Of a stretch of DNA of 33,601 nucleotides, positions 9,180 through 33,601 are shown in pieces. Position numbers and translations under genes: made by a program. Below the pieces are notes generated by a model that ran no database searches, was not told where the DNA came from, and was given only the letters and a program-made list of their open reading frames with translations. Source of the DNA: Planctomycetia bacterium (GTDB lineage: Bacteria; Planctomycetota; Planctomycetia; Pirellulales; UBA1268). Location: assembly GCA_009924545.1 (NCBI GenBank), contig RFRL01000015.1, forward strand, positions 1 through 33,601. Reading direction: 5' to 3'. Position 1 is the stretch's first letter. Every line of letters begins with the position of its first letter.

Positions 9180-10814
9180 TCAGCCGGCCCGCCTCCGCGG
9201 GGAGGCGCCGGAACCCCCCAGCAGGCGTCGCAGCCGCGAGTGTGGCGCCGCCAACGCCTCCCCGCAGGCGAGGTAGTCGCGGGCCACGTCGGCCCACGTG
9301 CGCCGGCCCAACCGCGCGCACACGAGACGCTGCCGCGCGAGCACCTCGGCCGGATGGTCGAGGACGTGGAGGATCGACCTGACCATGCCGTCGACATCGG
9401 CGGGGACGAATGCCTCGGGGGCGGCAAGCTCGGCGTCGGTGAGGAGCTCCTCGACGACGGGGATCCGGCTGAAGGCCACCGGCGTCCCGACGCCGACCGC
9501 CTCCGCGAAGCCGAAGGGCATCGCCCCCTCGAAGAAGGTCGGGATGACGAGGGCCCGCGCGTGGCGCAGGAGCCGCGCATGGATCGGCTCGGGAAGGTTC
9601 GTCGCCTCGACGACGTCGAACACCAGCCCACGCCGCGCCAGTTCGGCGCCGAGCGCCGGATCGGAGGACAAGGCCCCGGTGACGACGAGCTTGACGTCGC
9701 GGCGGTGGCGCCGCAGCACGCACTCGTAGGCATCGATCGCGCCGGCGTAGTTCTTGTAGGGCCGGCACTTGCTCGACACGAGCAGATAGTCGACCCGCTC
9801 GAAGGGGAAATCACAAAAGAACCGGTGCGGCCCGCCCTGCACCGACGTGGCGAAATGGCGGCGCAGGTCGCGGGCCAGGTGTCGCCGCGACGTCGCCTCG
9901 TCCACATCGGCGGCGGGGGTGACGAGCGGGGCATGGGGCACGACGACGACCGGCCTTTCGCTACCGGCGAGTGCCGGCCGGACCTGGCGCCGGGCCACGT
10001 ACTCCGAGAAACAGACGACCGCCTCGGCCCGCTCCGCCAGGGCCGCGAGGCCGCGCTGGTGCGCCCGGATCGTGGCCGGCGGCACGCCCAGCAGCGGATA
10101 CTCGCGGTAGACGATGTCGGCGACGTTCACCACGAGCCGGCCCGGCAACCCGAGCGCCGCCTCCCAGCCGGGATCGGGCACGATCCACAGGATGTCGCCG
10201 GTCCGGCCATGGAGGTCGGCGGCGATGTCCTCGAACACCGGACGGACGCGCGGAAGGAGCGGTCGCAACACCTCGAGCATCCCCAGGCCCACTGTCGCCA
10301 TCACGGTCCGCCGCAGGCGCCCCGCGATCGCCAGGAGCAAACCGAGCGACGACGGGATCGTGGCCACCAACGGCCGCTGGCCGACGGCCCAGGTGAGCGG
10401 GTTGGTGCTGACGCCGTAGCCAGCCAGCCGCTCCTGCCACGCCTTCCGGCGCCGGCCGAACCAGGCGCGCAGTTCAAGTGCCCGGCGCCGATCGCGGCCG
10501 ACCGCCATGATGTGGAGCTTCGTCGACACCAGCGTCCGCGGACCATCGGCCGGCCCCTCGTCGGCGGCGAACAGCCGCTCCACGAGGTGCCGCGAACCCA
10601 CCGCGCACGGGATCACGATCGCCCCCACTTCGGGCACCTGGTCGAACCCGCTGATCAGCGCCCGTACCCAACGGATCAGCCCCTCCCCGTGGGCATCGGC
10701 CAGCGACGCATCGGACAATTCAAGCCAGATGCCCACCGCCCGCACGGAGGCCGACCCGCGGCGAACCGGGACCGACCCTCGGGCGCCGTCGTGCGAAGTC
10801 GTCGAGGCGAACAT
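9180..10814 (-). CDS. glycosyltransferase (GT-B/GT4-like) with long N-terminal region
   Basis: FERVDYLLVSSKCRPYKNYAGAIDAYECVLRRHRRDVKLVVTG...ALVIPTFFEGAMPFGFAEAVGVGTPVAFSRIPVVEELL. Confidence 0.8.
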   Translation of the reverse strand: MFASTTSHDGARGSVPVRRGSASVRAVGIWLELSDASLADAHGEGLIRWVRALISGFDQVPEVGAIVIPCAVGSRHLVERLFAADEGPADGPRTLVSTKLHIMAVGRDRRRALELRAWFGRRRKAWQERLAGYGVSTNPLTWAVGQRPLVATIPSSLGLLLAIAGRLRRTVMATVGLGMLEVLRPLLPRVRPVFEDIAADLHGRTGDILWIVPDPGWEAALGLPGRLVVNVADIVYREYPLLGVPPATIRAHQRGLAALAERAEAVVCFSEYVARRQVRPALAGSERPVVVVPHAPLVTPAADVDEATSRRHLARDLRRHFATSVQGGPHRFFCDFPFERVDYLLVSSKCRPYKNYAGAIDAYECVLRRHRRDVKLVVTGALSSDPALGAELARRGLVFDVVEATNLPEPIHARLLRHARALVIPTFFEGAMPFGFAEAVGVGTPVAFSRIPVVEELLTDAELAAPEAFVPADVDGMVRSILHVLDHPAEVLARQRLVCARLGRRTWADVARDYLACGEALAAPHSRLRRLLGGSGASPRRRAG

Positions 10815-31264: not shown

Positions 31265-32077
31265 TCACCCGGCACCGGCGCCCACGTGGCAGTGCGCCAG
31301 GACCGTCTCCGGCGTCGCCACATAGCCGGTGTAGAAGGGGCCGAACTCGGCGTACCGGGCGCTCGCCTCGTCGAAGCGCATCGTGTAGACGATCTCCTTG
31401 AGGAAGTCGGGCCGCCGCGCCCACAGCGTCACCCCCCACTCCCAGTCGTCGAGTCCCACGCTCACCGTGATCAACTGCGTGACACGCCCACCGAAGGTCA
31501 TGCCGGTGCGGCCATGCTCGGCCATCAACCGGCTGCGCTCGGCGAACGGGAGAAGGAACCAGTTCTCCCCCACCTCGCGCTTCTTGTTCATCGGATAGAA
31601 GCAGGCGTTGGGCCAGGGGGGCAGTTCAGGCTCGATCCGCGCCCGGCGCATGGCATCCTCCCGCGCGGCATACCCCGCGACCTTCGCCTTGTAGCTCGGG
31701 CTGTCGGCCATCTCCCCCTCCTCGAGGAGCCGCTGGCCGTACTGGGCGACCGTGGGGACGTATTCGCTCACCTCCGTGAGGCCGATGAACGACCACGTGG
31801 GCACGAGCGCGGTGCCGAGGGGCCCGGCGACGAGCCGCTGGTGCACAGCCTCGACCGCGAGGGGGGAGGGATCCATCGCCACGACGGCGAAGTCGGCCTT
31901 GTGCCCCGGCACGATCCACGTCTGCAGACGGCGGGGCGCCCCGGCCGCGCCGGGGTCGAGCGCCGCCCGGAACGCAGCCATCCCCTCGGCGAGCTGGCGC
32001 GGCGAGAGGGCGGCCAGCCGGCCGTGGTCGAAGGAGTAGAAAAGGTGGCTCACGTGCCACCCGGTGGACGGCTCCAT
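31265..32077 (-). CDS. hemQ: chlorite-dismutase-like / HemQ-type coproheme decarboxylase
   Basis: GWHVSHLFYSFDHGRLAALS...TWSFIGLTEVSEYVPT...ACFYPMNKKREVGENWFLLPFAERSRLMAEHGRTGMTFGGRVTQLITVSVGLDDWEWGVTLWA. Confidence 0.93.
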   Translation of the reverse strand: MEPSTGWHVSHLFYSFDHGRLAALSPRQLAEGMAAFRAALDPGAAGAPRRLQTWIVPGHKADFAVVAMDPSPLAVEAVHQRLVAGPLGTALVPTWSFIGLTEVSEYVPTVAQYGQRLLEEGEMADSPSYKAKVAGYAAREDAMRRARIEPELPPWPNACFYPMNKKREVGENWFLLPFAERSRLMAEHGRTGMTFGGRVTQLITVSVGLDDWEWGVTLWARRPDFLKEIVYTMRFDEASARYAEFGPFYTGYVATPETVLAHCHVGAGAG

Positions 32078-32266
32078 CGACGCGGTGTCGTCGGCGGCGT
32101 TGCGGTGCGGGGGATGGGACACGGCGGAAGGTCTCCTCGGGACGGGGGTGCCACCGACTCGCCGGTCGCGCCCGGGCCCGGAGTGTAGGCGGCCCGGAGG
32201 CCACTTCCCATCCCCCGTCACGGCCCCGCCGCACCGCTGCCTGTCCCTCCTGGTGCCGGAGCCGGT

Positions 32267-32361: not shown

Positions 32362-32634
32362 ATGGGACAGGCGATCGTCGATCCACAGGAACTGCGGCGT
32401 TTCGCCGCCCGTCTGCGCCACTTCAGCACCGAAGTGATGACGCAGATGCAGGCGGTGCAGCGGCAGCTCTCGGCGCTCGGTTCCACCTGGCGCGACCAGG
32501 AGCACCAGAAATTCGCGGAGGAGTTCGAGCAGCAACTCAGCACCTTCGGCCGGTTCGTGGAGAGCACCGGTGAATACGTGCCCTACCTGATCCGCAAGGC
32601 GGAGCGGGTCGAGGAATACCAGCAGCAGCGGTGA
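32362..32634 (+). CDS. WXG100-like small helical protein
   Basis: 90 aa: MGQAIVDPQELRRFAARLRHFSTEVMTQMQAVQRQLSALGSTWRDQEHQKFAEEFEQQLSTFGRFVESTGEYVPYLIRKAERVEEYQQQR; helix-turn-helix with a central W-x-D turn. Confidence 0.75.
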   Translation: MGQAIVDPQELRRFAARLRHFSTEVMTQMQAVQRQLSALGSTWRDQEHQKFAEEFEQQLSTFGRFVESTGEYVPYLIRKAERVEEYQQQR

Positions 32635-32650
32635 GCCGGGGAGGCAGGCG

Positions 32651-33289
32651 ATGTCCGGACAGGCCGACGTCAAATCGATCGACACCCTCGCCTTCGTGAA
32701 GGCGGCGGTGGCGTCGTTCGCCCACGAGACCGGCCAGGCGATCGCCGAGGTCGAGCTGGAGGGCCGGCGGGCCGTCGACTACATCACCATGGACCGGGCC
32801 GCACACTGGAAAGCCGAGGTCCGCCGCGCCGGCGACATGGTCAACCAGGCGATCAAGGACCTCGAGCACTGCCGGGCGTTCAAGAAGGTGGGGGACAGCC
32901 AGCCCTCGTGCGTCGAGGAGAAGAAAAAGCTGGAGAAGGCCCGGGCCCGATTGGCACTGGCCGAACAGAAGGCGGAGGCGGTGCGCCGCTGGACGCCGAT
33001 GGTCCAGCAGCAGTTCCGCGAGACATGCGTGAAGCTCGTCCACTTCCGCGAGGTGGTCGACGTGAAGTGCCCGCGCGCGGTGGCCACCTTGGAGCGGATG
33101 CTCAAGGCCCTCGACGCCTACCGCGAACTGTCGGGGCCGCGTCCCGGGGGCAATGCCGGTGGCACGGCTTCCGCCACCGCCGTCACCCGTCAGGTGGAAG
33201 ATCCGGCATCCCCTGCTCCGGCGTCGACCGCTGCTCCAGCCGCTCCAGCGGGGAGCGCTGGGCCAACAGTGGATCCCTCCACCCCGTGA
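32651..33289 (+). CDS. coiled-coil protein encoded between two WXG100-like genes
   Basis: 212 aa; DRAAHWKAEVRRAGDMVNQAIKDLEHCRAFKK...SCVEEKKKLEKARARLALAEQKAEAVRRWTPMVQQQFRETCVKLVHFREVVDVKCPRA; A/P/T-rich C-terminal tail. Confidence 0.7.
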   Translation: MSGQADVKSIDTLAFVKAAVASFAHETGQAIAEVELEGRRAVDYITMDRAAHWKAEVRRAGDMVNQAIKDLEHCRAFKKVGDSQPSCVEEKKKLEKARARLALAEQKAEAVRRWTPMVQQQFRETCVKLVHFREVVDVKCPRAVATLERMLKALDAYRELSGPRPGGNAGGTASATAVTRQVEDPASPAPASTAAPAAPAGSAGPTVDPSTP

Positions 33290-33299
33290 GGTGCGTCCC

Positions 33300-33536
33300 G
33301 TGAAGCACATCGACCTCTCCAGCGGCGCCTCGAAGATGTCGCTCGCGCTCAAACAGTTGGAGATCAAGTGGGACTCCGCCAAGGACACCTGGAACGACGC
33401 CACGAGCAAGGCGTTTCACAAGGAGCACATCGAGCCGCTCCGGCCCGACATCAAGGAAACGCTCGAAGCGATCGGCCGACTGGCGGAGGTCCTGGCCCGC
33501 GCCGCCCGTGACGTCGCCGACGAAGGTGGCGGCTGA
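33300..33536 (+). CDS. second WXG100-like small helical protein (GTG start)
   Basis: VKHIDLSSGASKMSLALKQLEIKWDSAKDTWNDATSKAFHKEHIEPLRPDIKETLEAIGRLAEVLARAARDVADEGGG; W-x-D centre, ~78 aa, helical. Confidence 0.65.
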   Translation: MKHIDLSSGASKMSLALKQLEIKWDSAKDTWNDATSKAFHKEHIEPLRPDIKETLEAIGRLAEVLARAARDVADEGGG

Positions 33537-33601
33537 CGCCGGATGGGGGCTTCCGCGGGCGCGACCCCGGTTGCGGGGTCGGACACGGCGGGCGGATTGG
33601 G

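Follow-up and report, generated by a model that had tools for sequence, protein, structure and literature searches.

A single-copy WXG100 and EssC-like ATPase operon of planctomycetes in a side branch of type VII secretion

The three cassette genes and their ATPase

The stretch of DNA analyzed in this study, called the window, comprises 33,601 nucleotides and is the entire contig C47 of a planctomycete genome of 4.36 Mb in 444 contigs. A preliminary description had reported three co-directional open reading frames near its right end, and this observation was confirmed: W1 (32362-32634, 90 aa), M (32651-33289, 212 aa), and W2 (33300-33536, 78 aa, GTG start) are all located on the plus strand and are separated by 16 bp and 10 bp, respectively. 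As had been stated, the locus runs off the right edge, since the contig stops at position 33601 after a spacer of 65 bp (33537-33601, plus strand) behind W2. Upstream of W1 and divergent from it, positions 31265-32122 of the minus strand code for a HemQ-like heme synthase of the chlorite dismutase family (PF06778, E = 1.2e-50).

W1 clearly matched the WXG100 family PF06013 (E = 4.2e-10, above the gathering score), whereas W2 matched it only weakly (E = 3.8e-4, below the gathering score), which means that the assignment of two WXG100-like proteins stood firmly for the former and in a weaker form for the latter. Nine of 20 W2 homologues matched PF06013 at E ≤ 0.1, and comparison of the W1 and W2 profiles gave an E value of 1.2e-4 with a probability of 55%. 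The W-x-D centres described for both proteins were found as W43-R-D in W1 and W31-N-D in W2; W-x-D was retained in all 103 W1 and all 95 W2 homologues examined and takes the place of the W-x-G turn of the WXG100 proteins of canonical type VII secretion systems (T7SS). The best PDB matches of the W1 profile were HP0062 of Helicobacter pylori (3fx7, 2gts, ~1e-9) and EsxB of the Bacillus type, and the mean column identity of W1 was 75% among 20 Pirellulales. The export motif (YxxxD/E, FxxxD) was matched only loosely: a hydrophobic residue followed by xxx-D/E occurred near the C-terminus of 94 of the 103 W1 proteins, a pattern loose enough to count as weak evidence. A third weak WXG100 match was present in the genome on contig C83 (E = 1.2). 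Within the genus, dN/dS values were 0.06 to 0.08 for W1, 0.02 to 0.07 for W2, and 0.14 to 0.17 for M, showing that all three genes are under purifying selection.

The pair of WXG100-like proteins had been taken to imply an FtsK/SpoIIIE-type ATPase, and such a protein is in fact encoded by the next gene, which lies outside the window. The genome contains two FtsK/SpoIIIE genes, one of which opens contig C389 with its ATG at base 9 and codes for an EssC/EccC-like protein of 1344 aa (G000:C389:9-4043). This contig begins with ACGAGC-ATG, like the orthologous start in the close relative G003, and in both G003 and a second close relative, G002, the ATPase gene is located directly 3′ of W2 with a similar sequence around its start. 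The C389 gene together with the synteny in relatives ruled out that the cassette has no ATPase. By sequence, the nearest solved relatives of the ATPase are EccC and YukB (4nh0, 1.9e-35), and its NCBIfam matches lie in the vicinity of EccC/EssC but fall far short of the cut-offs. A model of the domains D1 to D3 of a close orthologue (pLDDT 85) matched the cytoplasmic three-ATPase part of EccC (4nh0) in Foldseek with E = 2.5e-32 over 892 alignment columns. The Walker A (GKTGSGKST, residues 748 to 756) and Walker B (DEF, residues 856 to 858) motifs are both invariant and belong to the middle domain, D2; no P-loop was found in D1 or D3. Coiled coil makes up the first 400 residues and is interrupted in most planctomycetes by a transmembrane (TM) hairpin. 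The architecture is coiled coil, TM hairpin (lost in the window's genus), coiled coil, D1 (dead), D2 (Walker A and B intact), and D3 (dead).

Conservation of the operon and loss of the TM hairpin

The synteny check proposed in the preliminary description found the ATPase in syntenic relatives: in the 19 relatives of the order that carry the locus, its gene is next to W1-M-W2. The order W1-M-W2-ATPase extends across the Pirellulales and most other planctomycete lineages sampled, and among 80 loci from Pirellulales, Gemmatales, Isosphaeraceae, and Schlesneria and 20 further loci from the whole phylum, the same cassette was present in nearly all with a contig of sufficient length. In the exceptions L149 and L152 the ATPase gene is unlinked and W1-M-W2 are still together. 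In the window's family, hemQ is located upstream in divergent orientation, and two further genes often follow 3′ of the ATPase gene; the position of hemQ beside W1 throughout the family probably reflects linkage only. No partner membrane protein adjoining the core and conserved across families was found. M was present in one copy in 14 of 15 genomes tested; W1 was absent from the phage set searched and gave one plasmid match. The three genes of the window thus open an operon of four genes that occurs in single copy across planctomycetes, and this version forms a core that is syntenic within the family and not obviously mobile.

Some loci showed other arrangements. In L160 (9031-10254) the order is M-W2-W1, with the ATPase gene ~180 kb away on the same contig; here, the match was read through two TGA codons. 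L154 (G168:C1:7881041, 7882189-7884612) is a reduced variant with W1 and a shorter TM-less ATPase (open frame of 1008 aa), lacking M and W2. In several Pirellulales (L039, L040, L129, L132, and L137), genes of ~1000 to 1160 aa and ~300 to 560 aa (clusters c6 and c5) precede W1.

A sample of 394 genomes spanning the phylum contained 62 with W1. The ATPase was found in all 12 W1-positive genomes tested (E values from 0 to 4e-250), also where its gene is unlinked. All 20 W1-negative genomes tested lacked it, and in these only ordinary FtsK proteins matched the D2 part (1e-10 to 1e-21); the counts are not independent, as the genomes are related, but presence and absence alternate within the families f15 and f21. 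These data bear on the possibility that the cassette consists of three unrelated helical open reading frames and represents no system. Short helical proteins easily resemble each other and W2 scored below the Pfam cut-off, but the invariant W-x-D, the conserved gene order, the occurrence of the ATPase in 12/12 versus 0/20 genomes, and dN/dS values well below 1 reduce the probability of this reading to almost nil. Chance open reading frames in particular were ruled out by the dN/dS values and the conservation of W-x-D.

The cassette had been proposed to be a divergent ESX (type VII)-like system, and this interpretation was partly supported. A canonical ESX/T7SS that secretes a W1/W2 heterodimer across the inner membrane would account for the combination of WXG100 proteins with an EccC/EssC-like ATPase and for the N-terminal TM hairpin in most planctomycete homologues of the latter. 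However, YukC (EssB) gave no match in the window's genome and none above the cut-off in 14 genomes, and YukD (EsaB) was missing from the window's genome and from 12 of the 14 genomes tested, although the Bacillus subtilis YukC control and the YukD control were matched. EccB was not matched either, in a search whose control likewise gave no match. The P-loop pattern also differs from that of EccC/EssC, the TM hairpin is missing in the window's genus, and M separates W1 and W2, leaving no bicistronic pair. The absence of YukC and YukD, the restriction of the P-loop to D2, and the lack of TM segments in the genus led us to reject a canonical ESX system, which we regard as improbable. The YukD-like matches above the cut-off in two planctomycetes (G041:C1:1770757-1770966 and G117:C1:145443-145655), which are far from W1 or on another contig, possibly belong to a separate T7SS-related locus.

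In the ATPase of the window's genus the TM hairpin is absent, with a maximal 19-residue hydropathy of 1.49. Hydropathy values of the ATPases were bimodal, ranging from 0.79 to 1.38 without and from 1.62 to 3.02 with the hairpin; the TM-less set includes L044, a member with a split open reading frame. In the ATPases of the window's genus the flanks are kept and a segment of ~60 to 70 residues is missing. In a quick tree of D1 to D3, with TM segments called by hydropathy rather than by a trained predictor, there are four changes of the TM state, all within the window's family; well-supported branches force at least three of them. The junction sequences differ among the TM-less clades (FGGLKK, GGIGGLFSGNK, and GAGMMNVFGRKK), which speaks for independent loss events. 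The hairpin was thus excised about four times within the family, including the window's genus. With dN/dS values of 0.17 to 0.19, purifying selection continues to act on the TM-less ATPases of the genus.

Loss of the hairpin speaks for an ATPase that, in this genus, does not depend on its own membrane anchor, and it challenges a simple membrane-secretion reading. The proteins might instead form an NTP-dependent machine of the cytoplasm, perhaps a defensive one as proposed for versions associated with CoCoNuT/TerY-P, that would act on nucleic acids or protein complexes by remodeling or translocation and for which the TM hairpin is optional. At least three to four losses under continued purifying selection point in this direction, as do the related plasmid systems found in islands with VWA, PP2C, kinase, and CARF genes and with nucleases, and also the suggestion of the CoCoNuT authors that the missing TM domains indicate a different mechanism (PMC11090510). 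On the other hand, the planctomycete operon has no defense neighbors and is syntenic beside hemQ in the family, PADLOC found no system-level match but only generic FtsK/HerA domains, and most planctomycete versions possess the hairpin. We consider this alternative possible at a clearly minor probability. Equally tentative is the view that the machine repeatedly turned cytoplasmic in this one family, with W1, M, and W2 retained, and that its ancestral, conserved job is the handling of a W1-M-W2 bundle inside the cell rather than secretion.

The middle protein M and its plasmid counterparts

The AF2 model of M (pLDDT 84.6) consists of two helices formed by residues 7 to 77 (32669-32881, pLDDT mostly >95 in this block) and 88 to 161 (32912-33133), followed by an Ala/Pro-rich C-terminal tail of residues 162 to 212 (33134-33286) that is predicted to be disordered (pLDDT 46 to 67). 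With ~70 residues per helix and 1.5 Å per residue, the computed length of the hairpin is ~105 Å. The tip between the helices carries the motif C74...P-S-C87-x-E-E. M matched no Pfam or NCBIfam family, Foldseek returned generic coiled coils without a specific match, and none of 63 M proteins matched LXG or toxin families of Pfam. Sequence searches gave no support for placing M among the WXG100 or LXG proteins. For the M of the window, neither a toxin domain nor an accompanying immunity gene was observed. Two distant lineages of planctomycetes, L148 (M at 9320-10447) and L151 (M at 9222-10295), have an M with a fused C-terminal Imm33-like domain (PF24719, 1.1e-7 and 3.2e-7, above the gathering score), and no toxin gene was recognized at these two loci.

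Searches with the ATPase by tblastn identified plasmid relatives in other phyla. On a plasmid of Helicobacter sp. NHP19-012 (L188:5761-10163), W1 is followed by a 340-aa protein containing a coiled coil plus WHH and colicin-DNase domains, an SMI1/KNR4 (SUKH) immunity protein, a 77-aa protein, and the ATPase. In Caballeronia the order is VWA, W1, a 436-aa coiled-coil protein, proteins of 113 aa and 76 aa, ATPase, CARF, VWA, PP2C, and kinase, and in Deinococcus the ATPase is followed by W1 (88 aa) and by proteins of 94, 326, and 144 aa. A conjugative plasmid of Rhodococcus sp. AH-ZY2 (L187:6492-11922) encodes the ATPase, a 314-aa protein, a 73-aa protein, and W1 (87 aa); this cassette is reordered and lies beside TerD-family genes, and its 314-aa protein combines an M-like N-terminus with a C-terminal domain. 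According to these gene tables, M occupies the slot in which a toxin or nuclease is found in the plasmid systems.

The Rhodococcus cargo protein scored 19.1 bits against the M profile, with a maximum of 2.6 bits in 200 heptad-preserving shuffles. The Caballeronia and Deinococcus cargo proteins matched weakly (5 and 2 of 200 shuffles, respectively, were as good), and their relation to M is supported mainly by the cysteine tip motif. This motif occurred in 46 of 63 M proteins, in three of the four plasmid cargo proteins (Rhodococcus, Caballeronia, and Deinococcus), and in ~2% of background genes. The Helicobacter protein lacked the motif and did not match the M profile, as 46 of 200 shuffles scored equally well, and a similarity of the N-terminus of this nuclease to M was thus unsupported. 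The link between cargo and M is statistically good only for Rhodococcus.

M is therefore a conserved component in the cargo position of related systems, and as the planctomycete protein is accompanied by neither a toxin domain nor an immunity gene, its designation as cargo would rest on analogy. As the plasmid proteins in this slot end in nuclease toxins with immunity genes, the ancestral function was, by analogy, most likely effector export.

Proposed mechanism and relation to known systems

We favor, with reasonable though limited confidence, a stand-alone, single-copy WXG100/EssC-like ATPase machine whose core is formed by W1, M, W2, and a hexamer-type ATPase. In this model W1 and W2 would bind the long helical hairpin of M and form an elongated helical bundle, similar to what Lap1/Lap2 build with an LXG domain, or PE with PPE, in type VII secretion. 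The finding that W1-M-W2 stay together when the ATPase gene is elsewhere fits such a single bundle. The complex would then dock on the ATPase, presumably a hexamer, and ATP hydrolysis by D2 would move or remodel it, with M as a putative carrier that might be moved and might cross the membrane. That M is a client of the ATPase appears somewhat the better supposition. True export in the TM-bearing relatives is plausible at slightly less than even chances and has a lower probability in the window's genus.

A class of solo WXG proteins associated with a YueA-like ATPase, in which only the middle one of three HerA/FtsK domains is active, was briefly noted by Zhang et al. in 2012, with planctomycetes named (PMC3482391, table footnote 6). 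Three ATPase domains with only the middle one active, a linked WXG protein, and the occurrence in planctomycetes make it almost certain that the cassette belongs to this class. In contrast to the mobile and solo systems described there, it contains two WXG100-like proteins and M, is present in one copy per genome, is syntenic within the family, and has a TM hairpin in most members that was secondarily lost in some. Mobility was described as an apparent rather than strictly defining property of the class and was not seen here, the cassette being single copy beside hemQ in the family.

For EssC-like ATPases active in D2 only, the CoCoNuT study of 2024 (PMC11090510) described an N-terminal coiled coil together with a coiled-coil nuclease and two WXG100 proteins; given the lack of TM domains, its authors suggested that the mechanism differs. 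The planctomycete cassette shares the D2-only ATPase, the long N-terminal coiled coil, the two WXG100 proteins, and a coiled-coil middle protein, and its gene order is the same as that of the Caballeronia island. In the CoCoNuT systems the middle protein is nuclease fused, located in a VWA/kinase/McrBC island, and not accompanied by TM segments, whereas in planctomycetes it is stand-alone and without a nuclease, and the ATPase usually has the TM hairpin. The HP0062-HP0066 "WXG100 secretion system" of H. pylori (PMC4978471, PMC3397514) is similar in that HP0062, the best structural match of W1, has W-R-D at its hairpin bend and is clustered with an FtsK/SpoIIIE protein, HP0062/HP0066 being a related pair. 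It differs in that its cluster is annotated with an HNH/EndoVII nuclease, which M lacks.

LXG effectors form complexes with two small WXG100-like partners, one of which carries the T7SS signal (PMC9600955). The planctomycete cassette likewise encodes a long helical protein with two such partners, but M has neither an LXG motif nor a toxin domain, and the resemblance is one of arrangement, with no sequence relation shown. With T7SSa, T7SSb, and T7SSc-j, a scheme that covers Gram-positive phyla only (PMC11217815), the cassette shares a WXG100 protein and a three-domain EccC/EssC-type ATPase; these systems have other conserved components, whereas YukC and YukD are missing here and the active domain is a different one. 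The cassette thus represents a side branch of type VII secretion that has received little study. The general class had been mentioned shortly in 2012, when planctomycetes were named, and in 2024, for the CoCoNuT islands. Our search of the open literature turned up no description of the planctomycete anatomy, of M, of the single-copy synteny, or of repeated TM-hairpin loss. New are thus the single-copy, family-syntenic core, an M hairpin in the toxin slot that sometimes carries an Imm33-like domain, and the loss of the TM hairpin about four times.

The phyla from which type VII secretion is known are Gram-positive. With four genes in single copy, the minimal version present in many lineages of a diderm phylum offers a simple system for studying the role of the WXG100-ATPase core when the known membrane partners are lacking. 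TM-bearing and TM-less ATPases form a natural series in which everything else is retained, and the need for membrane anchoring is thereby directly testable. M, which seems to be a toxin-free relative of the nuclease carriers, might reveal how this carrier part is recognized.
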